A stretch of DNA of 64,000 nt from contig NZ_JACIDX010000002.1 in the NCBI RefSeq assembly GCF_014196525.1, positions 343,232 through 407,231 of the forward strand, in the 5' to 3' direction. The stretch comes from Novosphingobium sediminicola (lineage in GTDB: Bacteria > Pseudomonadota > Alphaproteobacteria > Sphingomonadales > Sphingomonadaceae). Both the position numbers and the translations under genes were made by a program. Under the pieces are notes generated by a model that was not told where the DNA came from, did not search any database, and worked only from the letters and a program-made list of their open reading frames with translations. Shown one piece after another: positions 13,306-27,178 of this stretch (positions within the stretch are counted from its first letter, which is position 1; every line of letters begins with the position of its first letter).

Positions 13306-15714
13306 TCAGTAATGGAAGCGCAGGTCCACGCCCACCTTGCGCGGGGTCAGCACGCCTTGCGCGTAATAGCGCTCCACAACCCCGGTGCGGGTCTGGTTGT
13401 ACGAGCTGACATCATTGCTGATCGAGGTGATCGCATATTTGTCGAAGATATTGTCGGCAAACAGCGCCACATCAAAGGCGGGCGCATGATAGGTGACGGC
13501 GGCGCGATGGGTGACATAGCTGGGGATCACCTCGCCATTGCCGCGCAGGCCGATGCGGGAATAGACATTGCCCTTGAACACGGCGGCCCAATTGGCCTCG
13601 ATGCTGCGCCCCTCGCCCAGCGGATAGGTATAGGTAAGCTGCGCGCTGCCCGAATGCTTGGTCGATCCGGGCAGGCGGTCGCCCGCAAAGACCGGGTAGG
13701 CCACGCCCTGGCTGACCACCACATTGTCGGCGTCCTGCGTCAGATGGGCGTCGGTATAGGAATAGGTGCCGTTGAACACCAGACGCGGGGTGATGCGGAA
13801 TTGGCCGGAAAGATCAAAGCCCTGCGAAACCGCATCCTTGGCATTGACCGTCACGCCCACCGCGCCGTTGACCGTCTGGGTATCGACCTGAATATTCTTC
13901 CAGTCGATATGATAGGCCGACAGCGTGAATTGCAGGCGCCGATCCAGCATCGAGGCGCGGATGCCGATTTCGGCATTGTTGGTCTTGTCGGGCTTATAGA
14001 GCAATTCGTTGGGATAGGCGCAGACGTTCTGGCCCGGCGGCACATTGCCCGGCGAGAAGGTGCAGGGCGCCACCCGGTTCACATTGCCCGTGCGATAGCC
14101 GGTGCTGTAGGTGGCATAGACCAGCAGGTCCTTGCTGAACTTATAGGATGTGTTGGCCTTCCACACCACGCCATCGGCGCTGGTGTTGCCCGAACGGATG
14201 CGGCTGGGGTCGAACTGGATCAGCGGATAGGGCGTGCGGGTCAGGCCCCCGCCGAACAGCGGCGTATCGGTGCCGCCGGTGGCAAAGGCGTCATATTTGA
14301 AATAGCGCAGCCCGCCCGTCACCTGCCAGCCTTCAGTCAGGTGATAAGTCGCCTCGCCATAGACTGCCTTTTCCTTGGTCCGCGTGTTGACGAAGGAGAT
14401 ATATTCCAGATCATCCGGGCGATAGACCCCGGCGAAATTGGCGAAACCAGGCGTATGCTCCTGATAGTTTCGGTAATTGCGCAAGTTGTTGTAAAACCCG
14501 CCAATCACCCAGCTGATCGGCCCGCCATGGGATGAAACCAGCCGCAATTCGCCGTTGAACTGACGATAGTCCTCGTTGGTGTCATTATACGAGGAGAAGG
14601 AAGGAAACGCCTCATAGCCGTAATTCAGGTCGAGCAGCAGATCGGTGTTGTCGGCATGGGTTTTCAGGTTCTGGTTGGTATAGGCGCCCGTCGCCACCAC
14701 CTGCGCAAAGCCGAGGTTGAAGTTGAATTCGGCGGCGAACAGGTCCGCCTTGCGCGTGGTTGGCTCCAGATAGCGCCACGGGCCTTCATACTTGTCCGTG
14801 CCCAGAACCCCCGCGCCCGTGGCCTGACGGCCCAGCGTCTTGGTGATCTGATGCGCATAGGTCAGATATAGCTTGGCCGCCGGGCTGGCTTCCAGCAGCA
14901 ACTGGTTGCGGGTGGTGAAAGTGTGCTCATAGTTCACCCCTTTGCGGAAGGTGAAATTGTTCACGTAATCGGTGGAATTGCCAAAGCCGCCCTGCGCCGC
15001 CGTGGTGCCGCGCACGGGCTGCGGATCGGACACGCCGGGGTTTTTCAGCAGGTGGTTGTAATTGATAAAGCCCGGATTATCGTAATAACCCACCGTCGAG
15101 CGCAGCGCGATATGGTCGGCCAGAATGGGTATATTGACCGTGGCATCAGCATTCGCGCCGAAATCGGAGCTGTGCGACTGGGCAAAGCCGCGCGCGTGGA
15201 GATCCACCGTGAATTTGTCGGTCGTGGGGCGATTGGGCATATAACGCACCGCGCCCGCCAGCGTGCCAAGGCCATACAGCGTGCCCTGCGGCCCCTGAAG
15301 CACTTCGACGCGGGAAATGTCGATCAGTTTGAAATCGAGATAGAGCGGCACTTCGCCCAGATAGACGCCCACGGCCGTTTCGTAATTCGATCCCGTGGCG
15401 CTGGAATCGGACGAGGAAATGCCGCGCATCACGATGTTGCCGGTCGATTTGGGGCCGGTGTCATTGACCGTGATGCCCGGTGTGAACGCGGCCAGCGCCT
15501 TCACATCGTCGATCCGCGCCTTGGCCAATTGGTCAGAGCCCAGCGCGCTGATGTTGATCGGCGCGTCCTGCAAGGTGGTCTGGCGGCGCGTGGCGGTCAC
15601 CACAATGTCGCCGCCATTGGCCGGCGCATCGGCATCGGCGGCAAAGGCAGAGGTCGCCGTGCCCATCAGAATGGTGGCGCAGAGCAATGTTTTGCGGGTC
15701 GATTTCCTGGTCAC
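13306..15714 (-). CDS. TonB-dependent outer membrane receptor
   Basis: 802 residues from GTG 15714, which has AGGAGG 4 bases upstream; an upstream in-frame ATG at 15741 lacks this. Signal peptide about residues 1-25 (ending TATSAFA). Plug domain: GDIVVTATRRQTTLQDAPINISALG (TonB box region IVVTATR), then GITVNDTGPKSTGNIVMRGISSSD and VEVLQGPQGTLYGLGTLAGAVRYMPNRP. The barrel follows and the protein ends GVDLRFHY with a terminal aromatic. The plug style (LQDAPINISALGSDQL, GTLAGAVRYM) belongs to the large sphingomonad receptor group often linked to aromatic or sterol-like ligands, but the ligand cannot be deduced. Divergent from the guanidine/urea operon across 560 bases. An inverted repeat at 15894-15921 lies upstream of it. 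Confidence 0.93.
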   Translation of the reverse strand: MTRKSTRKTLLCATILMGTATSAFAADADAPANGGDIVVTATRRQTTLQDAPINISALGSDQLAKARIDDVKALAAFTPGITVNDTGPKSTGNIVMRGISSSDSSATGSNYETAVGVYLGEVPLYLDFKLIDISRVEVLQGPQGTLYGLGTLAGAVRYMPNRPTTDKFTVDLHARGFAQSHSSDFGANADATVNIPILADHIALRSTVGYYDNPGFINYNHLLKNPGVSDPQPVRGTTAAQGGFGNSTDYVNNFTFRKGVNYEHTFTTRNQLLLEASPAAKLYLTYAHQITKTLGRQATGAGVLGTDKYEGPWRYLEPTTRKADLFAAEFNFNLGFAQVVATGAYTNQNLKTHADNTDLLLDLNYGYEAFPSFSSYNDTNEDYRQFNGELRLVSSHGGPISWVIGGFYNNLRNYRNYQEHTPGFANFAGVYRPDDLEYISFVNTRTKEKAVYGEATYHLTEGWQVTGGLRYFKYDAFATGGTDTPLFGGGLTRTPYPLIQFDPSRIRSGNTSADGVVWKANTSYKFSKDLLVYATYSTGYRTGNVNRVAPCTFSPGNVPPGQNVCAYPNELLYKPDKTNNAEIGIRASMLDRRLQFTLSAYHIDWKNIQVDTQTVNGAVGVTVNAKDAVSQGFDLSGQFRITPRLVFNGTYSYTDAHLTQDADNVVVSQGVAYPVFAGDRLPGSTKHSGSAQLTYTYPLGEGRSIEANWAAVFKGNVYSRIGLRGNGEVIPSYVTHRAAVTYHAPAFDVALFADNIFDKYAITSISNDVSSYNQTRTGVVERYYAQGVLTPRKVGVDLRFHY

Positions 15715-15893
15715 TTTGCCTCCTGTTGTGTCAAATGCCAATCAATCGGACGCATTTCTCCCTCGCCACCCGACAAGGCGGCGATCGTGCGACCACTTTG
15801 TGGCCTTCCCTCAATTCTTCGATGCACATCTGGCTATCGGCAACGCAATCGCCGCGCTGCAGCATCATTGCCGACATTCTCATAACGCTATGG

Positions 15894-15921
15894 ATATTAC
15901 TTAAGCCGTCAAGCGTAATAT
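15894..15921. promoter_or_regulatory. Inverted repeat ATATTAC-N14-GTAATAT, candidate operator
   Basis: Perfect 7-bp arms separated by 14 bases, 28 bp overall, located 180 bases upstream of the TonB receptor start. The spacer length and core ATTAC...GTAAT match the repeat at 16186-16223. The 28-bp span and roughly two-turn half-site spacing resemble operators bound by NikR-type ribbon-helix-helix tetramers (E. coli NikR: 6-bp arms, 16-bp spacer). A NikR-like regulator is encoded at 18935-19417. That it is the binding protein is inference. Confidence 0.5.
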
Positions 15922-16185: not shown

Positions 16186-16223
16186 GCGCATTATTACGAA
16201 CATGTGGTTTGGTAATAATGCGC
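16186..16223. promoter_or_regulatory. Inverted repeat GCGCATTATTAC-N14-GTAATAATGCGC, candidate operator
   Basis: Perfect 12-bp arms separated by 14 bases, ending 51 bases before the start of the ABC transporter substrate-binding gene. The inner seven bases of each arm (TTATTAC/GTAATAA) align with the repeat at 15894-15921 at identical spacing. An RNA hairpin in the 5' UTR is also possible, but there is no T-run and the loop is long, so a protein-binding site is favoured. Confidence 0.55.
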
Positions 16224-16274: not shown

Positions 16275-17360
16275 ATGTTGAGGAAGATCGGAAAAGCAGC
16301 CGCCATGGCAGGCGCCCTGATGGCGGGAACCATGCTGCTCTCCTCCTGCTCGCCCTCGACCAAGGCGCCCGAGGCGCGCAAAGAATTCAACATCGGCTGG
16401 TCGATCTATGCCGGATGGATGCCATGGCCCTATGCCCAGCAGGCCGGGATCGTGAAGAAATGGGCCGACAAATACGGCATCAAGATCAATATCACGCAGG
16501 TCAATGATTATGTCGAATCGGTCAACCAGTACACGGCGGGCAAATTCGACGGCGTGACCGTGGCCAATATGGACGCGCTGACCATTCCGGCTGCAGGCGG
16601 CAAGGATACCAGCGCGATCATCGTGGGCGATTACTCCAACGGCAATGATGGCGTTCTTCTGAAAGGCGCGGACAATATTGCCGCGATCAAGGGCCGTTCG
16701 GTCTATCTGGTCGAACTATCCGTCTCGCATTATCTGCTGGCCCGCGCGCTGGGCGAACACGGCATGGCGATGAGCGATGTCAAAACCATCAACACATCCG
16801 ACGCCGACATCGTGGCCACCTTTGGCAGCCCTCAGGCCAATGCCGCCGTCACATGGAACCCCCAATTGGCCGTGATGAAGGCTCAGCCCGGCGTGAAGGC
16901 GGTCTTCACCTCGGCCGATATTCCAGGCGAAATTCTTGACCTGCTGGTGGTGGATACGGCCACGCTCAAGGCCAACCCCAACCTTGGCAAGGCGCTGACC
17001 GGGATCTGGTATGAGACGGTTGCGCTGATGAAGCGTCAGGATGCGCAAGGCAAGGCAGCGCGCGCAGCTATGGCCAAGCTGGCCGGATCGACGCCCGAGG
17101 TCTTCGACAACCAGCTCACCACCACCTATCTCTACGATCAGCCCAAGGCCGCCGTTGCCGCCACCACGGATCCCGCACTGGTCACCACCATGACCCGCGT
17201 GCGCGATTTCAGCTTCTCCAAGGGATTGTTCAAGGGCGCGGCCAGTGCCGATGCGGTAGGCATGTCCTTCCCCGGCGGCAAGGTGCTGGGCGATCCGGCC
17301 CATGTCACGCTGCGCTTTGACCCCAGCTATATGGCCATGGCCGCCGACGGAAAATTGTAA
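16275..17360 (+). CDS. ABC transporter substrate-binding lipoprotein, urea-carboxylase-associated type (guanidine/urea uptake)
   Basis: 361 residues. A lipoprotein signal ends AGTMLLSSC with the acylated Cys at 25. The mature part begins EFNIGWSIYAGWMPWPYAQQAGIVKKWADKYGI, characteristic of the SsuA/TauA-like binding proteins found beside urea carboxylase genes. Further conserved segments are FDGVTVANMDALTIPAAGG and ATFGSPQANAAVTWNPQL, lining the expected ligand cleft. It would capture guanidine, urea or a related small nitrogen compound in the periplasm and deliver it to the permease encoded 4 bases downstream. Ligand inferred from operon content. Start ATG 16275 has AAAGGGGAAGCGAGCC upstream. 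Confidence 0.88.
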   Translation: MLRKIGKAAAMAGALMAGTMLLSSCSPSTKAPEARKEFNIGWSIYAGWMPWPYAQQAGIVKKWADKYGIKINITQVNDYVESVNQYTAGKFDGVTVANMDALTIPAAGGKDTSAIIVGDYSNGNDGVLLKGADNIAAIKGRSVYLVELSVSHYLLARALGEHGMAMSDVKTINTSDADIVATFGSPQANAAVTWNPQLAVMKAQPGVKAVFTSADIPGEILDLLVVDTATLKANPNLGKALTGIWYETVALMKRQDAQGKAARAAMAKLAGSTPEVFDNQLTTTYLYDQPKAAVAATTDPALVTTMTRVRDFSFSKGLFKGAASADAVGMSFPGGKVLGDPAHVTLRFDPSYMAMAADGKL

Positions 17361-17364
17361 CGCC

Positions 17365-18180
17365 ATGCGCTGGGTAAACCGCCAGATTTCGCGCAGTGAC
17401 AGGCTGTTATGGGGCGCTCTTCCCATCCTGCTGCTGATGTTGCTCTATATTTTCGCCGCCGCCGAGCGCCATGCGGCCAACCCTTCGGACAAGATCCTGC
17501 CGCTGCCCTCAGGGATGGCGCAGGCGATGTCCGCGCTGATCTTTGAACGCGACATGCTCTCGGGCCAGTTCCTGTTTCTGGCCGACACACTGGCCAGCCT
17601 GCAACGGCTGGGCCTCGGGCTGGGAATTGCCACGCTGGTGGCGCTGGTGTTGGGGCTACTGCTGGGGGCTTTGCCGCCGGTTCGCGCGGTGCTGGGGCCT
17701 TTGGTCACGGCGATTGCGGTGATCCCGCCGATTGCCCTGCTGCCGGTCCTGTTCATTGCGCTGGGGCTTGGCGAAACGGCCAAGGTGGCGCTGATCGCCA
17801 TCGGCGTCGCGCCGGTCATGCTGCGCGATATTGCCGGGCATGTTGCCGCCCTCCCGCGCGAGCAGATCATCAAGGCCCAGACCTTGGGCGCGGGAAGCTG
17901 GCAGATCCTGATCCGCGTCGCCCTGCCCCAAGCCATGCCGCGCCTGTTTCAGGCGGTGCGTCTGGCGCTGGGGCCGGCTTGGGTGTTCCTCATCTCCTCC
18001 GAAGCCATCGCCTCGGATGTCGGCCTTGGCTACCGCATCTTCCTCGTGCGGCGCTATCTCTCCATGGATGTGATCATCCCCTATGTGGCGTGGATCGCGC
18101 TGCTGGCCATTGCGATGGATGTCGCGCTGGCATTGGGCTCGCGCCGCTGCTTTCCCTGGGCACAAGGAGCAAACCATTGA
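17365..18180 (+). CDS. ABC transporter permease (nitrate/taurine/urea-type)
   Basis: 271 residues from ATG 17365, 4 bases after the binding-protein stop. About six membrane spans are visible, beginning WGALPILLLMLLYIFAAAE and including LGLGLGIATLVALVLGLLLG, AVIPPIALLPVLFIALGLG and PYVAWIALLAIAMDVALALG. The EAA-loop contacting the ATPase reads EQIIKAQTLGAGSWQILIRV followed by ALPQAMPRLF, the usual BPD_transp_1 sequence. It forms the inner-membrane channel with the downstream ATPase. The stop codon overlaps the ATPase start. Confidence 0.92.
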   Translation: MRWVNRQISRSDRLLWGALPILLLMLLYIFAAAERHAANPSDKILPLPSGMAQAMSALIFERDMLSGQFLFLADTLASLQRLGLGLGIATLVALVLGLLLGALPPVRAVLGPLVTAIAVIPPIALLPVLFIALGLGETAKVALIAIGVAPVMLRDIAGHVAALPREQIIKAQTLGAGSWQILIRVALPQAMPRLFQAVRLALGPAWVFLISSEAIASDVGLGYRIFLVRRYLSMDVIIPYVAWIALLAIAMDVALALGSRRCFPWAQGANH

Positions 18181-18938
18181 GCACGCTCCTCTCCTTGCGC
18201 GACCTGTGGGTCGAATATGGCGACAAGATCGTTCTGGAAAAGGTCGATCTGGATATTGCCGAAGGCTCTTTCGTCTCGATCATCGGCCCCTCGGGCGCGG
18301 GCAAGAGCAGCCTCTTGCGCGTGATCCTAGGGCAGGAAAGCCCGACGCGCGGCACGATTATGCTGGATGGCGCCCCGCTGGCGCCTGAATGCGGGCCGGA
18401 TCGCGGCGTAGTGTTTCAGCGCTATTCGGTCTTTCCGCATCTGACCGTCCTGCAAAACACGATGTTCGGGCTGGAATGCGCAGGCTCGCCGCTGACGGCC
18501 CGCCTGTTCGGCGCGGCCCGCGCCAAAGCGCGCGCAGAGGCGACCGCCATGCTGGAAGCCGTGGGCCTTGGCGACAATCTGCATATTTACCCCGCGCAAA
18601 TGTCGGGCGGGATGCAGCAGCGTCTGGCCATTGCGCAGGCGCTGATCAAACGCCCGCGCATCCTGTTGCTGGACGAACCCTTTGGCGCGCTCGACCCCGG
18701 CATTCGCGCGGATATGCACGGCCTCATCACGCAATTGTGGCGCGAATTTGGCCTCACCATCATCATGGTTACGCATGACATCCGTGAGGCTTTTTCGCTC
18801 GGCACGCGCGTTCTGGCGCTGGATAAACGCCGCCACGATCCCCACGCCCCCCACCGCTTTGGCGCCACGGCGGTTTATGACCTGCCGCTGCGCCCCCGCG
18901 AGGAAGAAGCAAGCCCCCGCGAGGAGACGGCAGCATGA
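18177..18938 (+). CDS. ABC transporter ATP-binding protein
   Basis: 253 residues from TTG 18177, which overlaps the permease stop and has AAGGAG 7 bases upstream; no ATG lies near the beginning of the conserved domain. Walker A GPSGAGKSS (37-45), Q-loop VVFQRYSVFPHLTVLQN, signature MSGGMQQRLAIAQAL, Walker B ILLLDEPFGALD and switch histidine VTHDIREA are all intact. It powers the guanidine/urea-type importer. The C-terminal tail after LALDKRRHDPHAPHRFG is short and charged. The stop overlaps the next start by four bases (ATGA). Confidence 0.92.
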   Translation: MSTLLSLRDLWVEYGDKIVLEKVDLDIAEGSFVSIIGPSGAGKSSLLRVILGQESPTRGTIMLDGAPLAPECGPDRGVVFQRYSVFPHLTVLQNTMFGLECAGSPLTARLFGAARAKARAEATAMLEAVGLGDNLHIYPAQMSGGMQQRLAIAQALIKRPRILLLDEPFGALDPGIRADMHGLITQLWREFGLTIIMVTHDIREAFSLGTRVLALDKRRHDPHAPHRFGATAVYDLPLRPREEEASPREETAA

Positions 18939-19417
18939 ACCCTCCCTCCACCTTGGCCCGGCTCAGCATGAGCCTGCCCGCCGAACTGTCGCGCAAGCTC
19001 GACATGATGGTCGAGGAGCGCGAATTGCCCTCGCGCTCGCAACTGATCGCCGAACTGATCCGCCATGCTTTGGCCAAGCATGAGAGCCTGACCCGCCCGG
19101 ACGAGATGCTGGCCGGCACCATCACGCTGGTCTATCGCGGTGACCGGGGCCGGGTGCGCCACCAACTGGCCCAGACTCAGGCCGATTACCTGACCGAAGT
19201 CATCTCCTCACAACACGTCTTTCTCGAACAGGACCAGTCGCTCGAAGTCCTGCTGGTGCAAGGCCCTGCCGTGCGCCTCAAGGATCTGTGCGATGCGCTG
19301 CGCCGGGTGCGCGGCGTGCATCAGCTCGAACTGGTCACCACCACCGCCCTGCTGCCCCCGCTTCATGCCGATGGCGCAGCATCCGACCAAACCCAACGCA
19401 AGGGAGCGGCAGCATGA
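18935..19417 (+). CDS. NikR-like ribbon-helix-helix regulator with degenerate nickel site
   Basis: 160 residues. Residues 1-50 form a ribbon-helix-helix DNA-binding unit (ARLSMSLPAELSRKLDMMVE, then RELPSRSQLIAELIRHAL). Residues 60-140 align with the ACT-like ligand domain of NikR (GTITLVYRGDRGRVRHQLAQ through RGVHQLELV). Against E. coli NikR the nickel ligands H76, H87, H89 and C95 correspond to A83, H94, F96 and S102, so three of four are lost. Nickel sensing by the known site is therefore unlikely. The gene sits in the middle of the guanidine/urea operon with ATGA overlaps on both sides and probably regulates it, perhaps through the repeats at 15894 and 16186. The effector is unknown; a pathway compound is a guess. 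Confidence 0.8.
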   Translation: MNPPSTLARLSMSLPAELSRKLDMMVEERELPSRSQLIAELIRHALAKHESLTRPDEMLAGTITLVYRGDRGRVRHQLAQTQADYLTEVISSQHVFLEQDQSLEVLLVQGPAVRLKDLCDALRRVRGVHQLELVTTTALLPPLHADGAASDQTQRKGAAA

Positions 19418-20250
19418 CAAATATACTCGCAAATACACTGGCCAATCCGATGGCCGCACGCGACCATGCCCGCGCCATGGCGGGCACCGTGGTCGAAGCC
19501 ATGCCGATCCTGCCTCCCCATGCCGATGACCTGCCCACAGGCGTAGCGCCGCAGGATCACCTCTGGGAAGAAACCATCGCGCCGGGCGGCTATGCCACGC
19601 GCCATCTGCCGCGCGGCGCCCGCCTGCGCCTGATCGACACGCAGGGCGACGCCTGCGCCAGCCTGATGATCTTCAACGCGCAAATGCCCAGCGAGCGTTT
19701 GAACGTGGCCGATACGGTCAAGGTGCAATGGAACGCCTATCTTGGCGCGGGCAAGCTGCTGCTCTCCGACATGGGCCGGGTGCTGATGAGCATCGAGGGT
19801 GATGAGGCGGGCACGCATGACTGCTTTGCCGGAACCTCCAACGCGGCCTCCAATGCCGCCAAATATGGCGACGGCACCAACAGCGGCCCACACCCCAACG
19901 GCCGCGACCGTTTCCTGCTGGGCGCGGCCAAGCATGGGCTGGGCCGCCGCGATGTCCACCCCTGCGTCAACCTGTTCAAGGGCACGCATATCGAGGAGGA
20001 CGGCACGATCACGCCGATCACCGGCCCCTTTGCGCCGGGCCGCAGCGTAGTGCTGCGCGCAGAGATGGAGGTGATCGTGGTCATCGCCAATTGCCCCCAC
20101 GTCCTCGACCCGCGCCCCGATTACACGGTCACGCCCCTGCGCGCCAGCGCATGGCGCGGGCCGATCACCCAGTCCGATGACCCCATCCGCAATGCGACGC
20201 CCGAAGGCCTGCGCGCCTTTGAAAATGTCGAAGATTACGTCCGCCGCTGA
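19414..20250 (+). CDS. DUF1989 urea carboxylase-associated protein 1, probable carboxyguanidine deiminase subunit
   Basis: 278 residues from ATG 19414, overlapping the regulator stop. DUF1989 features are GGYATRHLPRGARLRLIDTQGDACASLMIFNA, then SERLNVADTVKVQWNAYLGAGKLLLSDMGRVLMSI, a Cys/His-rich stretch (GTHDCFAGTSNA, VHPCVNLFKGT) and a C-terminal VVLRAEMEVIVVIANCPHVLDPR. The paired DUF1989 proteins of such operons form a heteromeric deiminase. It converts carboxyguanidine to allophanate plus ammonia, linking guanidine carboxylase to allophanate hydrolase. The Cys and His residues are candidate zinc ligands. This is the longer of the two subunits. Assignment rests on family knowledge plus operon order. 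Confidence 0.88.
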   Translation: MTNILANTLANPMAARDHARAMAGTVVEAMPILPPHADDLPTGVAPQDHLWEETIAPGGYATRHLPRGARLRLIDTQGDACASLMIFNAQMPSERLNVADTVKVQWNAYLGAGKLLLSDMGRVLMSIEGDEAGTHDCFAGTSNAASNAAKYGDGTNSGPHPNGRDRFLLGAAKHGLGRRDVHPCVNLFKGTHIEEDGTITPITGPFAPGRSVVLRAEMEVIVVIANCPHVLDPRPDYTVTPLRASAWRGPITQSDDPIRNATPEGLRAFENVEDYVRR

Positions 20251-20266
20251 TCGAGGAGCAGGCACC

Positions 20267-20902
20267 ATGACGCAAGATCCCCACACCGCCGGCCTGACCG
20301 GCGCCATCATCCATGACGCCATCGTCCCGGCCCGCGCGCCTTGGCTGCACACGATCCGGGCAGGCCAGACCCTGCGCATCGTCGATCTGGAAGGCAATCA
20401 GGCGGTCGATTTCCTGCTCTACAGCGCCGACGACGATGCCGAGCGCTACAGCATGCAGGATACCGTCTCGGCGCAGGGCAATCTCTTCCTGCGCGAAGGC
20501 ACAGTACTGCGTTCGAACGAAGGGCGCGCGATGATGACTATCGCGGCCACCTCAGTCGAATATCACGACACGATCGGCGGGGCCTGTTCGTGCGAATCCA
20601 ATACTTTGCGCTATGGCCACCACACCAAATCGCAACATGCCTGCGTCGAGAATTTCCTTGAGGCCAATCTGACCCAAGGGCGCGGCAAGCGTGACATCGT
20701 CTCGAACATCAACTTCTTCATGAACGTTCCGGTCGAAGCCGATGGCTCGCTGGGCATTGTCGACGGCATTTCCGCGCCGGGCCTGACGGTCGATCTGCGC
20801 GCGGAGATGGATGTGATCGTAGTCGTCTCGAACTGTCCCCAGATCAACAATCCCTGCAACGCCTTCAACCCCACCCCCGTTCGGATGATTGTATCGGCAT
20901 GA
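20267..20902 (+). CDS. DUF1989 urea carboxylase-associated protein 2, probable carboxyguanidine deiminase subunit
   Basis: 211 residues from ATG 20267, preceded by GAGGAGCAGG; an in-frame start 90 bases earlier would overlap the first subunit. It contains PARAPWLHTIRAGQTLRIVD followed by LEGNQAVDFLLYSADD, then MQDTVSAQGNLFLREGTVLRSNEGRAMMTI. A Cys/His cluster GGACSCESNTLRYGHHTKSQHACVENF and the C-terminal VDLRAEMDVIVVVSNCPQINNPCN complete it. The last segment parallels the first subunit (LRAEMEVIVVIANCPHV), showing the two are homologous partners. Predicted to pair with it in carboxyguanidine hydrolysis. The stop overlaps the carboxylase start (ATGA). Confidence 0.88.
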   Translation: MTQDPHTAGLTGAIIHDAIVPARAPWLHTIRAGQTLRIVDLEGNQAVDFLLYSADDDAERYSMQDTVSAQGNLFLREGTVLRSNEGRAMMTIAATSVEYHDTIGGACSCESNTLRYGHHTKSQHACVENFLEANLTQGRGKRDIVSNINFFMNVPVEADGSLGIVDGISAPGLTVDLRAEMDVIVVVSNCPQINNPCNAFNPTPVRMIVSA

Positions 20903-23900
20903 GTTTTGACACCGTCCTGATCGCCAATCGCGGGGCGATCGCCACCCGCATCATCCGCACTCTGCGCAAGATGAGCCTGCGCTCGGTCGCAGTCTATTCG
21001 CAGGCAGACGAGGCTTCGCTCCATGTGGCGCAGGCTGACGAAGCCATCTGCATCGGTGAAGGCAGGGCTTCCGAGAGCTATCTCAACATTCCCGCGATCA
21101 TCGCGGCGGCGCAGAAATCGGGCGCCGGGGCGATCCATCCCGGCTATGGGTTCCTTGCAGAAAGCACCGAATTTGCGCAGGCATGTGCAGAGGCGGGCAT
21201 TGTCTTTATCGGCCCCACGCCTGACAACATCCGCAGCTTTGGCCTCAAACATAGCGCCCGCGCGCTGGCCGCCGCGCATGACGTGCCGCTGGCCCCCGGC
21301 TCGGACCTGCTGACCGACGAGGCGCAGGCTCTGACAGCCGCCGCGCAGATCGGCTATCCGGTGATGCTCAAAGCCACGGCAGGCGGCGGCGGCATCGGCA
21401 TGCGCATTTGCGAAAATGACGAGGACGTGCGCGAAGGCTTTGCCGCCGTGGCCCGCCTTGGCATGAGCAATTTCGGCGATGCAGGGGTGTTCCTCGAAAG
21501 CTATATCCGCCGCGCCCGCCATATCGAGGTCCAGATCTTTGGCGACGGCGCGGGCCGCATCATGGCGCTGGGCGAGCGCGATTGCTCGCTGCAACGCCGC
21601 AACCAGAAGGTGCTGGAGGAAGCCCCTGCCCCCCTGCTGCCCCCCCATGTCCGCGCAGACCTCATCGCCTCGGCCATCCGACTGGGTCAGGCCGCCAACT
21701 ATCGCTCGGCGGGCACGGTCGAATTCCTCTATGATGCCGACCGCCAGAGCTTCTTCTTCCTCGAAATGAACACCCGCCTTCAGGTCGAACATGGCGTCAC
21801 CGAGGAGGTGATGGGCATCGATCTGGTCGAATGGATGATCCGGGGCGCAAGCGGCGATTACAGCTTCCTCGACGCGCCCACCCCCACGCCCAAGGGCCAT
21901 TCCATTCAAGTCCGCCTCTATGCCGAAGACCCCGGCCTCGATTATCGCCCCACCTCCGGCACGCTGACCGCCGTCACCTTCCCCGACAATATCCGCGCCG
22001 AAACATGGGTCATGGCGGGCAGCGAGGTCAGCGTCTGGTATGACCCGATGCTGGCGAAACTGATCGTCCATGCGCCCACTCGCGAGGAGGCCGTGGCCGC
22101 GATGCAGGAGGCGCTGGCCGCCACCCGCGTCGACGGGATCGAGACGAACCTGCGCTGGCTGCGCGATGTGGTCCGCCTGCCCGCCTTCACCAGCGGCGAG
22201 GTTTCCACCCGCGCGCTCGACAGCATCGAGTTTCGCCCCCGCGCCATCCGCGTGATCTCCGGCGGCACGGCCACCACGGTGCAGGACTGGCCGGGGCGGC
22301 AAAACCTGTGGGCGGTGGGCGTCCCCCCCTCCGGCCCGATGGATAATCAGAGCTTCCGCCTAGGCAACCGCCTGATCGGCAACAACGAAGGCACGGCAGG
22401 GCTGGAGGTCACCAACACCGGCCCGACGCTCAGCTTTACTGCGGAGGCCACAATCTGCCTGATGGGCGCGGATTTCGGCGCCACGCTGGATGGCGCGCCC
22501 ATCGCGCGCGGCGAGCCGATCCATGTCCTTGGCGGTCAGACATTGGCCATGGGCCGCGCACGCAGCGGAGGCATGCGCGGCTATATCCTGTTTGCGGGCG
22601 GCTTCGATCTCGCGCCCTATCTGGGCAGCCGCAGCACCTTTGAACTGGGCCAGTTCGGCGGCCATGCCGCGCGGCGTCTGATGGCGGGCGATACGATACA
22701 CCTGGGCGATGAACCTATGGCGGCGCCCTTGCCCTCCGCCGCCCTGCCCGAATTGCCGGGCGAATGGGCGATCCGCGTCCTTTATGGGCCCCATGGCGCG
22801 CCCGATTTCTTCACCCCCGCCGACATTGACACCATCATCGCCGCATCATGGCAGGTGCATTACAACAGCAACCGCACCGGTGTGCGCCTTGTCGGCCCCA
22901 AGCCGCAATGGGCGCGCAAGGATGGCGGCGAGGCGGGGCTGCACCCCTCGAACATCCACGACAATCCCTATGCCATTGGCGCTGTGGATTTCACCGGCGA
23001 CATGCCGATCATCCTTGGCCCCGACGGCCCCTCGCTGGGCGGTTTCGTCTGCCCCTTCGTGGTGATCGCGGCGGATCGCTGGAAAATCGGGCAACTGGCG
23101 GCGGGCGACACTTTGCGCTTCGTGCCGGTCAGCATAGAGGATGCCGCCAAGGCCGACGCCGCGCAGGAAGCCTTGCTTTCCACCGGCACGGCCATGGCCA
23201 ATACCCCCGCCCGCGCCATCGAGGCGCTCTCCCCCATTCTGGCCGAGACGCCGGCAGCATCAGGCCGCCCCCGCACTACCTATCGCCAGCAGGGCGACCG
23301 CAACATTCTGGTCGAATATGGCCCGATTACGCTGGACATCGAATTGCGCATCCGTGTCCATGCGCTGATGACCGAGCTGGAGCGGATTGCCGCGCCCGGC
23401 ATCATCGACATCGTGCCCGGCATTCGCTCGCTGCAACTGCATTTCGACGGCGCGGTGATCGATCAGGCATCCGCACTCGCCCTGCTGATCGAGGCCGAGG
23501 AAAGGCTGGGCGATCTGGCCGATTTCACTATCCCCTCGCGCATCGTCCACCTGCCGCTCAGCTGGCGCGATCCGGCGACCATCGAGACGATCGAGAAATA
23601 TATGGGCGCGGTGCGTGACGATGCGCCATGGTGCCCGGACAACATCGAATTCATCCGCCGCGTCAACGGCCTGCCCGATGCGGCCGCCGTCGAGAACCTG
23701 ATCTTCGAGGCCAATTATCTGGTGATGGGCCTTGGCGATGTCTATCTTGGCGCTCCGGTGGCAACGCCCGTCGATCCGCGCCACCGCCTTGTCACCACCA
23801 AATATAATCCCGCGCGCACATGGACGCCGCCCAATGTCGTGGGCATCGGCGGGGCCTATATGTGCATCTATGGCATGGAAGGGCCGGGCGGATACCAACT

Positions 23901-24495
23901 GTTTGGCCGCACCATTCAGGTGTGGAACACCTATCGCCAGACGCAGGATTTCATCGAGAACAAGCCCTGGCTGCTGCGCTTCTTCGACCAGATCCGCTTC
24001 TATCCGGTCAGCGCGGAAGAACTGGCCGAATGGCGGCGCGATTTTCCATCGGGGCGGCGCGCGATCCGTGTCGAGCCTTCGCAATTCCGCCTCGCCGATT
24101 ACCGCGCTTTCCTTGCCGACAATGCGCAAGGGATCGCCGAATTCGAGGCAAGGCGCGAGGCCGCCTTTGCCGAGGAACGCGAGGATTGGCAGCGCAAGGG
24201 CGAGTTCGACCGCGTATCGAGCCTGAATGAAGAGGATGCCCCCCAGACCGCCGACATCACTCTGCCCGAAGGCAGCGAATTGATCGAGGCGCCCTTTGGC
24301 GGCAGCGTGTGGAAACTGCTGGTGGCAGCAGGCGATGAAGTGAGCGCGGGCGAAACCATCGCGGTCCTCGAAACCATGAAGATGGAATGCCCGATCGAAA
24401 GTCCGGGCAGCGGCACCATCGCCGCGCTCTACATGGCCGAAAAGCAATCCCTGCAACCGGGCGCGCCGATGCTGGCGCTGCGGAGGCACGCATGA
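20899..24495 (+). CDS. Urea/guanidine carboxylase, biotin-dependent, single-chain
   Basis: 1198 residues. Domain order: biotin carboxylase (1-450, with VLIANRGAIATRIIRTLRKM, KATAGGGGIGMRICE and [19 protein letters not shown]); KipA/AHS2-like part (about 460-770, TTVQDWPGRQNLWAVGVPPSGPMD and LGPDGPSLGGFVCPFVVI); KipI/AHS1-like part (about 790-1000, YGPITLDIELRIRVHALM, IDIVPGIRSLQLHFDG and NLIFEANYLVMGLGDVYLGAP); and a biotinyl domain with LETMKMECP, biotin Lys about 1161. It carboxylates urea to allophanate or guanidine to carboxyguanidine. The adjacent DUF1989 pair favours guanidine. The residue proposed to separate the two substrates lies in the carboxyltransferase part, and the local sequence around residue 914 is WCPDNIEF; I could not align it to a reference. 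Overlaps both neighbours by four bases. Confidence 0.92.
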   Translation: MSFDTVLIANRGAIATRIIRTLRKMSLRSVAVYSQADEASLHVAQADEAICIGEGRASESYLNIPAIIAAAQKSGAGAIHPGYGFLAESTEFAQACAEAGIVFIGPTPDNIRSFGLKHSARALAAAHDVPLAPGSDLLTDEAQALTAAAQIGYPVMLKATAGGGGIGMRICENDEDVREGFAAVARLGMSNFGDAGVFLESYIRRARHIEVQIFGDGAGRIMALGERDCSLQRRNQKVLEEAPAPLLPPHVRADLIASAIRLGQAANYRSAGTVEFLYDADRQSFFFLEMNTRLQVEHGVTEEVMGIDLVEWMIRGASGDYSFLDAPTPTPKGHSIQVRLYAEDPGLDYRPTSGTLTAVTFPDNIRAETWVMAGSEVSVWYDPMLAKLIVHAPTREEAVAAMQEALAATRVDGIETNLRWLRDVVRLPAFTSGEVSTRALDSIEFRPRAIRVISGGTATTVQDWPGRQNLWAVGVPPSGPMDNQSFRLGNRLIGNNEGTAGLEVTNTGPTLSFTAEATICLMGADFGATLDGAPIARGEPIHVLGGQTLAMGRARSGGMRGYILFAGGFDLAPYLGSRSTFELGQFGGHAARRLMAGDTIHLGDEPMAAPLPSAALPELPGEWAIRVLYGPHGAPDFFTPADIDTIIAASWQVHYNSNRTGVRLVGPKPQWARKDGGEAGLHPSNIHDNPYAIGAVDFTGDMPIILGPDGPSLGGFVCPFVVIAADRWKIGQLAAGDTLRFVPVSIEDAAKADAAQEALLSTGTAMANTPARAIEALSPILAETPAASGRPRTTYRQQGDRNILVEYGPITLDIELRIRVHALMTELERIAAPGIIDIVPGIRSLQLHFDGAVIDQASALALLIEAEERLGDLADFTIPSRIVHLPLSWRDPATIETIEKYMGAVRDDAPWCPDNIEFIRRVNGLPDAAAVENLIFEANYLVMGLGDVYLGAPVATPVDPRHRLVTTKYNPARTWTPPNVVGIGGAYMCIYGMEGPGGYQLFGRTIQVWNTYRQTQDFIENKPWLLRFFDQIRFYPVSAEELAEWRRDFPSGRRAIRVEPSQFRLADYRAFLADNAQGIAEFEARREAAFAEEREDWQRKGEFDRVSSLNEEDAPQTADITLPEGSELIEAPFGGSVWKLLVAAGDEVSAGETIAVLETMKMECPIESPGSGTIAALYMAEKQSLQPGAPMLALRRHA

Positions 24496-26252
24496 ACCGT
24501 CAATCCGCCACCAAGATCGCCGCCGCCATCCGCAGCGGGCAAACCAGCGCGGTGGAGGTGGCGCGCGAAACTCTCGCCCGCCTCGCCGCCTATGACGCCA
24601 TCCAGCCGCAGATCTGGATCAGCCGGGCATCGCCCGAAACGCTGTTGGCCGCCGCCGCCGCCATCGACGCACGCGTGGCGACGGGCGAGGATCTGCCCCT
24701 TGCCGGCGTACCCTTTGCGGTGAAGGACAATATCGATGTGGCGGGGTTTGAAACCACCGCCGCCTGCCCCGCCTTTGCCTATCGGCCCGCCGCCTCGGCC
24801 CCGGTGGTCGAACGCCTGATCGCGGCGGGCGCGATCTGTGTCGGGAAAACCAACCTCGACCAATTCGCCACCGGCCTTGTCGGCACGCGCAGCCCCTATG
24901 GCATCCCGCGCAACGCCTATAACCTCGCCTATGTCAGCGGGGGGTCAAGCTCAGGCTCCTCGGTGGCGGTGGCGGCCGGATTGGCGGCCTTTGCGCTGGG
25001 CACGGATACGGCGGGATCGGGGCGGGTGCCTGCGGCCTTCAACCATCTGATCGGCTTTAAGCCCACCAAGGGGCGGTGGAGCACATCGGGTCTGGTGCCT
25101 GCCTGCCGCACGTTGGATTGCATCACCGTGTTCACCGATGACACGGCGGATGCGCGGTTGATCGACAGGGTAGTGGCCGGGTTCGATCCCGCCGATCCCT
25201 ATTCCAAACCCTTGATCGACCGCCCCCGCGCGGCGCGGACCATCGGGGTTCCACGCCGCGATCAACGCCTGTTCTTCGGCGATGCGGAGAGCGAATATCT
25301 CTATGATCGCGCGCTCGAAACACTTTCCGCGCAGGGCCAGATCGTCGAGATCGACATGGCCCCGCTGCAGGAGGCCGCGCAATTGCTCTATGGCGGCCCA
25401 TGGGTGGCCGAGCGCAGCGCCGCCATCGCGGACCTTTTGGCCGACAATCCCGATGCCATCGACCCCACCGTGCGCGCCGTGGTCGAACCGGGGCTGGAGA
25501 TAAGCGCGGTGGACCTGTGGCAGGGGATCTATCGCCTCGCCGCCTTGAAACGCCATGCCGATGAGATGTGGGAGGAGATCGACATCCTCGCCTTCCCCAC
25601 CACCGGGACAACCTATCGCGTGGCCGAATTGGCCGCCGCGCCCATCGCGCTCAACAGCAATCTTGGCGCCTATACCAATTTCGTGAACCTGCTGGATATG
25701 GCCGCGCTGGCCATTCCGGCGGGGGTGCGCGGCAATGATACCGGCTTTGGCATCACGCTGATCGGGCCTGCCGATTGCGATCTGGCGCTGCTGGACGTGG
25801 CCGATGCCTATCTCGATGCCGCCGACCTTCCCCCCATCCCACCGCTCGATCTGGAGGCTAAAATGCAGACCGTGAAACTGGCCGTTGTCGGCGCTCATCT
25901 CAAGGATATGCCCCTCCACTGGCAATTGACCAGCCGCGATGCCGCCTTTGTCGGGGCCTTTGAGACCGCGCCCAATTACCGGCTCTATGCCATGGCCGAC
26001 AGCGTGCCGCCCAAGCCTGCGCTGATCCATGCCGAAGAAGGCGCTCCGATCAAGGTGGAGGTCTATGAGCTGGGCGTGGCCGAGTTTGGCAGTTTCGTGG
26101 TCGAGGTACCCGCGCCGCTGGCCATCGGCACGGTGACGCTGGCCGATGGGTCCAGCGTCAAGGGCTTCGTGGCCGAACCGCGCGCGATTGTCGGGGCAAC
26201 CGACATCACCGATCTGGGTGGCTGGCGCGCCTATATCGCCTCGCGCGCGTAA
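24492..26252 (+). CDS. atzF: Allophanate hydrolase
   Basis: 586 residues from ATG 24492, overlapping the carboxylase stop. The amidase-signature catalytic triad is intact: Lys78 in VPFAVKDNIDVAG, the cis-Ser in VSGGSSSGSSVAVA (151-156) and nucleophile Ser175 in GTDTAGSGRVPAA. A C-terminal domain (about 440-586) ends in RAIVGATDITDLGGWRAYI, the part typical of full-length AtzF-type enzymes rather than other amidases. It hydrolyses allophanate to ammonia and carbon dioxide, completing nitrogen release from guanidine or urea without a nickel urease. Last enzyme of the pathway; the propeller gene starts within 15 bases. Confidence 0.93.
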   Translation: MNRQSATKIAAAIRSGQTSAVEVARETLARLAAYDAIQPQIWISRASPETLLAAAAAIDARVATGEDLPLAGVPFAVKDNIDVAGFETTAACPAFAYRPAASAPVVERLIAAGAICVGKTNLDQFATGLVGTRSPYGIPRNAYNLAYVSGGSSSGSSVAVAAGLAAFALGTDTAGSGRVPAAFNHLIGFKPTKGRWSTSGLVPACRTLDCITVFTDDTADARLIDRVVAGFDPADPYSKPLIDRPRAARTIGVPRRDQRLFFGDAESEYLYDRALETLSAQGQIVEIDMAPLQEAAQLLYGGPWVAERSAAIADLLADNPDAIDPTVRAVVEPGLEISAVDLWQGIYRLAALKRHADEMWEEIDILAFPTTGTTYRVAELAAAPIALNSNLGAYTNFVNLLDMAALAIPAGVRGNDTGFGITLIGPADCDLALLDVADAYLDAADLPPIPPLDLEAKMQTVKLAVVGAHLKDMPLHWQLTSRDAAFVGAFETAPNYRLYAMADSVPPKPALIHAEEGAPIKVEVYELGVAEFGSFVVEVPAPLAIGTVTLADGSSVKGFVAEPRAIVGATDITDLGGWRAYIASRA

Positions 26253-26266
26253 AGGGAGAGATGCCC

Positions 26267-27178
26267 ATGAAAGCCCTGCTGCTCGCTGCTCTCATCGCTA
26301 CCCCCGCTCTGGCCGAGCCGGTGGAGAAGGTCATCCCCGTCCCCGGTTTTGCCGACTTCATCGCGGTGGATGGCGCAACCGTGTGGACCACCAACCGGGG
26401 CCGGGTCGAACATTGGTCCGCGCAAAAGAAGCTGGCCGAAGTGGCATCCCCACGCCCCTGCGGCGGCATGAGCATCGCCCATGGCTCGTTGTGGTTTGCC
26501 GATTGCAAGGAGGGCGTGGTCAAGCGCGTCAGTCTGCATAAGGCCAAGGTGATCGCCACCATCCCCACCGGCCTTGCCAATGGCAAGGAGGGCGAATTGA
26601 ACGTGGCGGCGGGTGCGGGCTCAATCTGGGTGGCCAGCGATGCCAAGGGCGAGATCAAGCGGATCGACGCCAAAACGAACAAGGTCATCGCCACCATCCC
26701 CACCGAGCCGGGCGCCTATTACCTCGCCTTCGGTTTCGATGCGCTCTGGGCCGTCAGCGCCAAGGGCAATCTGATCCAGCGGATTGATCCGGCGACCAAC
26801 AGCGTGACGAAAACGACCCATCTCGGCAAACTGCCGGGCTTCCTTGCCGCAGGCGAAGGCGGCGTCTGGGTTCAGGAACAGGGCGACGGCACCGTGGCGC
26901 GCATCGATCCGACCAGCGGTGAGGTTTCAGGCCGGGTCAAAGTTGGCGAAGTGCTGAAATATGGCGACATCGACACGGGCGGCGGCAAGGTCTGGCTGCG
27001 CAGCACCGAGGATCAGACCTTTGTGGTGATTGATCCCAAAACGCTGGCCATCCGCGCCCGCGTCGGGCCACTGGCGGGCAGCGGGGGCCTGCGTTACGCG
27101 CCGATGGGGGTGTGGACCACCGCGCATGACAAGCACACTTTGTCCTTCTGGGCCGATCCGGCCAAGATCGGGCAATGA
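26267..27178 (+). CDS. Secreted beta-propeller protein (YVTN/virginiamycin-lyase-like repeats)
   Basis: 303 residues from ATG 26267, with AAAGGGAGAG 6 bases upstream; ATG 26261 is too close to that site. Signal peptide MKALLLAALIATPALA. The rest is a repeated unit of about 40 residues with the pattern GxxWVxSxxxGxIxRIDxxTNKVxATIPTG, for example AGAGSIWVASDAKGEIKRID, ALWAVSAKGNLIQRIDPATN, GVWVQEQGDGTVARIDPTSG and KVWLRSTEDQTFVVIDPKTL, giving about six blades. Enzyme activity is not evident. It follows the allophanate hydrolase closely and ends at a hairpin, so it belongs to the operon by position; its part in guanidine use is unclear. Confidence 0.8.
   Translation: MKALLLAALIATPALAEPVEKVIPVPGFADFIAVDGATVWTTNRGRVEHWSAQKKLAEVASPRPCGGMSIAHGSLWFADCKEGVVKRVSLHKAKVIATIPTGLANGKEGELNVAAGAGSIWVASDAKGEIKRIDAKTNKVIATIPTEPGAYYLAFGFDALWAVSAKGNLIQRIDPATNSVTKTTHLGKLPGFLAAGEGGVWVQEQGDGTVARIDPTSGEVSGRVKVGEVLKYGDIDTGGGKVWLRSTEDQTFVVIDPKTLAIRARVGPLAGSGGLRYAPMGVWTTAHDKHTLSFWADPAKIGQ

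Follow-up and report, generated by a model that had tools for sequence, protein, structure and literature searches.

NikR proteins combine a ribbon-helix-helix (RHH) domain with a NikR_C domain whose nickel-ligand set is His/His/His/Cys, and in Escherichia coli nickel acts as the co-repressor. The sites of delta-proteobacterial NikRs are inverted half-sites separated by 13 or 14 bases, GTGTTAC-N13/14-GTAACAC, in the part of PMC545781 available to us. For guanidine, the described sensors are RNAs: Guanidine-I and Guanidine-II riboswitches control the genes for a transporter, UAAP1/UAAP2, a carboxylase and allophanate hydrolase. The accessible text of a 2025 review gives riboswitches as the only known guanidine receptors besides transporters and enzymes, and mentions transcription factors that bind guanidine as a possible future discovery (PMC12186494). 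MumR also regulates a urea-carboxylase operon in Acinetobacter; it differs in being a manganese-linked LysR-family regulator, and we rejected the mum system of A. baumannii as an identity for the present locus because it is another operon (PMC5050338, as excerpted). CdbA, likened here by its description in the available part of PMC7156744, is an RHH protein too and has a small-molecule effector, c-di-GMP; it is a nucleoid protein.

We analyzed a 64,000-nucleotide stretch of Novosphingobium sediminicola DNA (the window) encoding a NikR-fold protein that is very probably the regulator of the operon in which it lies. The protein, in which three of the four nickel ligands are missing, is likely a local and probably repressing regulator of what appears to be a guanidine uptake and carboxylation operon, released by guanidine or a close product. 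A description of such a regulator was not found in open-access PMC full text, a collection outside which most subscription papers fall. A link between NikR and urea carboxylase was absent from the accessible text of PMC2667541, and the match in that of PMC12153308 was an author's name. The relevant features are as follows.

13306..15741, minus strand: TonB-dependent receptor, divergent from the operon
15895..15920: predicted operator TATTACTTAAGCCGTCAAGCGTAATA, before the TonB-dependent receptor, with a -35-like TTGAC in the receptor direction
16192..16217: predicted operator TATTACGAACATGTGGTTTGGTAATA, before the substrate-binding-protein gene, one of two exact copies in the genome; extended arms CATTATTAC-N14-GTAATAATG at 16189-16220
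16275..17360, plus strand: ABC substrate-binding protein, TIGR03427 ('putative urea'; likely guanidine)
17302..18180, plus strand: ABC permease, true start uncertain
18030..18938, plus strand: ABC ATPase, true start uncertain, stop overlapping the regulator start by 4 bp
18935..19417, plus strand: NikR-fold regulator, ATG start, 160 aa; RHH at residues 9-48, NikR_C at residues 60-136, Pro-Pro tail LLPPLH at 139-144
19414..20250, plus strand: UAAP1 (DUF1989), predicted carboxyguanidine deiminase subunit, TIGR03425 at 307.8 bits (cut-off 205.95)
20252..20902, plus strand: UAAP2 (DUF1989), predicted carboxyguanidine deiminase subunit, TIGR03424 at 335.9 bits (cut-off 284.7)
20899..24495, plus strand: urea/guanidine carboxylase (TIGR02712) with Asp697, predicted guanidine-specific
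24492..26252, plus strand: allophanate hydrolase, TIGR02713

From the divergent receptor gene, the order runs through substrate-binding protein, permease, ATPase, regulator, UAAP1, UAAP2, carboxylase and allophanate hydrolase. The gene set of the guanidine carboxylase pathway (transporter, UAAP1/UAAP2, carboxylase and allophanate hydrolase) is thus complete in the window. Pfam and NCBIfam matches agreed with the first-pass annotation, made from the DNA letters, which had placed the regulator in a guanidine/urea carboxylase operon. Its description of the pathway as urease-free holds for the 5.37-Mb home genome as judged by the urease alpha subunit, which was not found there. The four-base overlaps that it had noted with both neighbors are seen in the sequence as ATGA (ATPase stop at 18938, UAAP1 start at 19414).

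The identity of one carboxylase residue is informative for substrate choice. Guanidine carboxylases carry an active-site Asp and urea carboxylases an Asn (PMC12186494, in the part available). Asp697 of the window enzyme (GAVDFTGD) aligned with Asn1330 of yeast urea amidolyase (GAINFTGD), and Asp was present in 83 of 89 loci, the other six having no readable motif. We take this to be the specificity position of the review, and on its sequence the window carboxylase is predicted to be specific for guanidine.

The regulator matched RHH_1 (PF01402; 23.7 bits, cut-off 20.5) and NikR_C (PF08753; 72.5 bits, cut-off 22) over the residues listed above, and was the sole NikR_C protein of its genome. Pyrococcus horikoshii NikR was the best solved relative (E 6.6e-24), with Helicobacter pylori NikR at E 1.6e-8. 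In alignment with both, the nickel-ligand positions read Ala83, His94, Phe96 and Ser102, so that His94 is kept and the other three members of the His/His/His/Cys set are replaced. All five matched NCBIfam NikR models scored the protein under their cut-offs (PRK04460, 92.0 against 105 bits; PRK01002, 86.1 against 111; PRK00630, 62.2 against 119; PRK02967, 55.6 against 83; TIGR02793, 51.8 against 175.45). A true NikR was ruled out by the ligands, these cut-offs and the gene context.

An AlphaFold2 model of the regulator (mean pLDDT 78.5, pTM 0.57) placed the helices of the DNA-binding domain at residues 16-28 and 34-52. When the model was compared with the PDB by Foldseek, all 50 matches listed were NikR. 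The modeled C-terminal domain superposed on H. pylori NikR (2y3y) with a TM score of 0.91-0.93 (by target length) and 1.2 A rmsd over 81 columns. Full-length superpositions on NikR structures mostly gave TM about 0.5-0.6 with 8-13 A rmsd, which we attribute to the two domains meeting at a different angle. The first-pass annotation had claimed an RHH plus a NikR-type C-terminal domain and the four residues named above, and had proposed structure prediction with NikR alignment as a check. Domains and residues were both confirmed, and the check returned a NikR fold with three ligands gone.

These replacements are shared with relatives. In the query and the best 120 of 2183 homologues, His94 and Phe96 were present in all 121 sequences and Ser102 in 120, His never occurred at position 83, and the segment QHVFLE..DQSLEVLLVQG was nearly fixed. 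In a 56-row tree, the guanidine-type NikR-fold proteins formed a single clade of 24 rows (support 99/94), and removal of the ligand and tail columns, in a tree that left out the long-branched L102, gave 99/99. The clade spans Alphaproteobacteria (many of them sphingomonads), Acinetobacter and one further lineage. Its sister branch contains the P. horikoshii, haloarchaeal and Manganitrophus NikRs, all with four intact ligands. A proline tail with the core hhP[P/Q]h was common to the clade members read, and the proteins read with an intact His/His/His/Cys set (HHHC) were without it.

Within the clade, two further types were found. The regulator of Acinetobacter sp. NCu2D-2, reached through a plasmid search, is 34% identical to the window protein and is encoded with UAAP1, UAAP2, carboxylase, allophanate hydrolase, a small-multidrug-resistance exporter and a 2OG dioxygenase. 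Among the best 120 of its 345 homologues, those named by organism were Acinetobacter, and the ligand positions read Gln (120/120), His (118/120), Gln (120/120) and Ile or Val (120/120). The third type, with Arg or Tyr followed by His, His and Thr, retains two of the four nickel ligands and was found in G283, G716 and G707, the last outside the class. Across the clade, position 83 is unconstrained, and Phe, Gln or His occupies position 96 depending on the subclade; no single ligand cage is therefore conserved. In 51 rows of the sphingomonad and Acinetobacter types (the Arg-His-His-Thr type being left out), 25 columns were invariant. These include a single His (H94) and a single Asp (D23, within the DNA-binding domain) but no Cys, so the two types share no nickel site. 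The only invariant polar residues of the C-terminal domain were T64, Y67, H94 and Q109. An alternative set of ligands still forming a nickel site would have spoken against the first-pass reading; in these 51 members, no such common site was seen. Judged from these alignments, ligand loss is fixed across the whole clade and is not a one-off decay.

These data bear on the idea of a protein that has kept metal sensing (of nickel, zinc or another metal) by means of rearranged ligands and couples metal supply to the pathway. The match to the NikR fold, the retained His94 and the two ligands left in the Arg/Tyr-His-His-Thr members are compatible with it, as is a TonB-dependent receptor in the predicted regulon, since such receptors often carry metal complexes. 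However, the 25 invariant columns contain no conserved ligand set, position 83 is unconstrained, the home genome lacks urease alpha, and the protein falls below the cut-offs of all five matched NCBIfam NikR models. We consider metal sensing improbable.

Ligand loss also occurs elsewhere. Three sphingomonad NikR_C proteins (L137, L145 and L154, in G826, G859 and G865) carry HART, HARS and HHVS at the ligand positions, representing a separate loss on the HHHC side of the tree; they keep His-rich tails, and guanidine genes were not found in the 15-16 kb read around them. A further NikR_C protein (L102, in G041) is strongly diverged, with Arg/Gln/Pro/Tyr at these positions. The HART, HARS and HHVS proteins, which lie outside the clade, show that NikRs do decay. 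The window protein, too, could be a passenger of the operon that senses nothing for the pathway, either as a decayed NikR or as a repressor without a ligand. Against this stand the almost fixed C-terminal segment in the query and best 120 of 2183 homologues, the single clade, and an operator kept from Acinetobacter to sphingomonads, and we regard it as very improbable. Simple decay of a NikR copy was rejected on the near-invariance of the C-terminal domain.

The predicted operator is TATTAC-N14-GTAATA. Exactly two copies occur in the home genome, both at the regulator locus, and the control pattern had none. We fetched 76 loci (1.16 Mb) from named genomes, in which the closest regulators, from Novosphingobium sp. 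SG707 and SG751A, were 99% identical to that of the window. These loci contained 125 N14 sites (116 distinct with flanks), compared with two at N8, three at N15 and none at any other spacing in the range 4 to 25, and all 76 were free of the everted form. A chance inverted repeat was ruled out by this strict spacing and by the two exact copies in the home genome. At least one operator was present in 71 of the 76 loci, and in the five others the contig ends within the transporter genes or the regulator. TTAC-N-GTAA and the spacing are common to this operator and to the delta-proteobacterial NikR consensus (PMC545781, in the part available).

Site positions were equally regular. With the two window sites included (127 in total), the nearest gene start was that of the substrate-binding protein in 64 cases, the regulator in 32, the TonB-dependent receptor in 30 and another gene in one, and no site fell inside a mapped gene. 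A TTGAC in the direction of the target gene lay within the site in 30 of 30 receptor-side, 24 of 32 regulator-side and one of 64 transporter-side sites. At the transporter promoter, the operator instead lies upstream of a -35-like TGGACA. The regulator-side sites of relatives are about 20 bp before the regulator start codon. Both Acinetobacter records examined have an operator before the transporter genes, and the A. baumannii record (L086) also has one before UAAP1; in Acinetobacter sp. NCu2D-2 the only exact site is the one before the transporter genes, and the sites nearest to its regulator and UAAP1 are one and two bases off. The first-pass annotation would have been contradicted by a regulon unrelated to the operon. 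Instead, the operon makes up its own predicted regulon, since the home genome has its two exact operators at the guanidine locus. Regulation of nickel uptake or nickel enzymes was not indicated by these sites, and the search for a nickel enzyme in this genome, which covered the urease alpha subunit, found none.

We surveyed genomes at three taxonomic levels. NikR_C was found in 17 of 385 genomes of the class, comprising 13 HHHC proteins, one RHHT (G283), two of the window type (G000, G244) and one odd RQPY. A clade profile matched 45 of 398 genomes of the phylum (47 matches), with nine proteins at E 3.1e-42 or better and then a gap to 3.7e-23; of the 30 matches whose ligands were read, nine were guanidine-type and 21 HHHC. 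Among 149 Sphingomonadaceae genomes, 23 encoded 25 NikR_C proteins, 21 of which were of the x-His-Phe-Ser type. UAAP1 and UAAP2 lay within 1.5 kb of 20 of these 21, and the remaining one is a second copy in G869, beside a 2OG dioxygenase and other genes. The other four of the 25 were other NikRs with no guanidine genes nearby.

UAAP1 scored above cut-off in 24 of the 149 genomes, and a DUF1989-type match, weaker or better, was present in 77. The regulator occurred in 20 of the 24 UAAP1 genomes and in none of the 125 others (Fisher p 3e-21, uncorrected for kinship). It also lay directly before UAAP1 in 76 of the 76 fetched loci, a set chosen for closeness to the window regulator. The co-occurrence of ligand-less NikR homologues with DUF1989 and urea carboxylase genes, proposed as a check in the first-pass annotation, is thus positive in these 149 genomes. 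Four sphingomonad genomes (G769, G798, G870 and G770; L165-L168) have the full operon with no NikR-like gene; neither an exact operator nor an Rfam riboswitch was found in them, and a different regulator is expected there.

In the same 149 genomes, the exact operator was present in 20, that is, in 18 of 20 with the regulator versus two of 129 others (one site in G726, two in G840). In the two remaining regulator genomes (G776, G849), a site with one mismatch precedes the regulator instead. The reversed control pattern occurred 18 times in the 149 genomes, so a small number of sites should arise by chance. The regulator genomes contain 30 exact sites, and for 28 of these the regulator is no more than 15 kb away. 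Protein and site are paired by co-occurrence, which leaves room for an operator that belongs to another regulator, with the NikR-like gene merely a neighbor. However, among the 24 operon-bearing genomes, the exact site was present in 18 of 20 with the gene versus none of four without it (p 0.0014). The site also has NikR geometry, and the regulator is the nearest downstream gene in 32 of 127 cases. We therefore hold ownership by another regulator to be the least probable explanation considered. On these counts, operator presence tracks the regulator and not the operon.

The nature of the effector was approached through related clusters. A Guanidine-I riboswitch precedes UAAP1 in A. baumannii (L086; operator at 834-859, riboswitch at 895-990) and in Acinetobacter sp. 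NCu2D-2 (L175), and a Guanidine-II riboswitch precedes UAAP1 in the alphaproteobacterial G283 (L158). These elements act on the same gene set as the proposed regulator, as RNA rather than protein. Rfam found no riboswitch in nine alphaproteobacterial x-His-Phe-Ser stretches scanned (the window, L002, L008, L055, L073, L080, L159, L160 and L161), and a hidden riboswitch in the window was thereby ruled out; none was found in L156 or L157 either. Because of the riboswitches in related clusters and the carboxylase Asp residue, guanidine or a near derivative is favored over urea as effector.

The clusters have other features of note. Genes for an SMR exporter and a 2OG dioxygenase occur in L081 and add to the link with guanidine. 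The Acinetobacter 2OG dioxygenase and its partner without a Pfam match are alike in kind and arrangement to the MgdH/MgdL methylguanidine demethylation pair, as described in the accessible text of PMC12508155. Between the operator and riboswitch of L086 lies TGGCATGTCCTTTGCA (866-881), which resembles a sigma-54 promoter and hints at extra nitrogen control in Acinetobacter.

A separate branch is associated with creatininase-like genes. Two distant clade members, of the Tyr/Arg-His-His-Thr type, lie beside such genes in G707 (L156, 4372-10044) and G716 (L157, 9304-10688), and a guanidine carboxylase was not found in the 19.5-kb stretches read around them. G707 has an exact operator in front of a gene run with transporter, creatininase-like, type III glutamine synthetase and regulator members. 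Given these neighbors and the lack of a carboxylase in the sequence read, this branch may have another effector, and another amidine or a creatinine-like substrate is possibly used.

Linkage alone does not separate guanidine from a pathway intermediate. The protein could regulate the operon, by repression or activation, in response to an intermediate or product (carboxyguanidine, allophanate or urea) or to a nitrogen-status signal. The operon encodes the whole route to ammonia, any member of which could induce, and the creatininase-linked members, for which the sequence read showed no carboxylase, suggest that the effector may not always be guanidine. Activation or nitrogen control would fit an operator upstream of both the -35-like box of the transporter and the sigma-54-like element of L086. 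However, the sensors that Rfam identified in three related clusters are guanidine riboswitches, and the -35-like box within the operator at all 30 receptor sites points to repression. We consider this explanation unlikely, while giving it more weight than any of the others set against guanidine-responsive repression.

On balance, guanidine or a near relative as effector, with repression as the mode, is somewhat more likely than not. A tetramer with two RHH dimers would grip two half-sites two turns apart, in the manner of NikR, at the TATTAC-N14-GTAATA operators. In the absence of guanidine, the protein would shut off the receptor and transporter genes and, in relatives, its own gene as well. 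Binding of guanidine or a close derivative to the C-terminal domain, possibly in the vicinity of His94, would then release the protein from DNA, a predicted logic likely the reverse of co-repression by nickel in E. coli NikR. We infer that guanidine or methylguanidine would be the effector, rather than urea, carboxyguanidine or allophanate. Repression is suggested because the site covers the -35-like TTGAC of the TonB-receptor promoter, and autoregulation because the sites of relatives are so close to the regulator start codon. An activator role is possible at the transporter promoter, where the operator is upstream of the likely -35 box; in L086, the operator is upstream of the sigma-54-like element and the riboswitch.

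The window protein thus resembles NikR in its RHH plus NikR_C architecture, its C-terminal fold, its nearest tree branch (which holds P. horikoshii NikR) and, if binding occurs as predicted, its N14 half-site spacing. It differs in its three replaced ligands, its proline tail and its linkage to guanidine rather than nickel genes. The earlier proposal that the fold was repurposed away from nickel in a nitrogen pathway is supported; which of its candidate molecules is sensed is a matter of inference. With the balance about even, the clade may consist of NikR descendants that sense guanidine (methylguanidine or other amidines in side branches), having lost metal sensing, kept the operator geometry and reversed the logic. 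In sphingomonads such a protein would replace the riboswitch, and in Acinetobacter it would act in series with it.

The clade is a concrete guanidine-sensor candidate with a predicted operator, regulon and species range. If guanidine or a close relative is sensed, as is likely, the protein would be the counterpart of the guanidine riboswitches, and a metal sensor would have been converted into a metabolite sensor. The name 'CopG family nickel-responsive transcriptional regulator' is likely wrong for these proteins in these bacteria, and the operator and protein could serve as a guanidine biosensor.

Further variation was seen around the locus. A second regulator copy lies between the TonB receptor and substrate-binding-protein genes in 13 of the 76 loci (L024, L032, L035, L038, L039, L044, L052, L056, L064, L065, L066, L068 and L072). 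In G869, two unlinked sites were found, one before another TonB-dependent receptor (L171, 7935-7960) and one with no evident target (L172, 7284-7309). A gene for a beta-propeller protein (YncE/virginiamycin-lyase-like; window 26261-27178) accompanies the operon in 52 of the 76 loci, in relatives sometimes on its opposite side and opposite strand.
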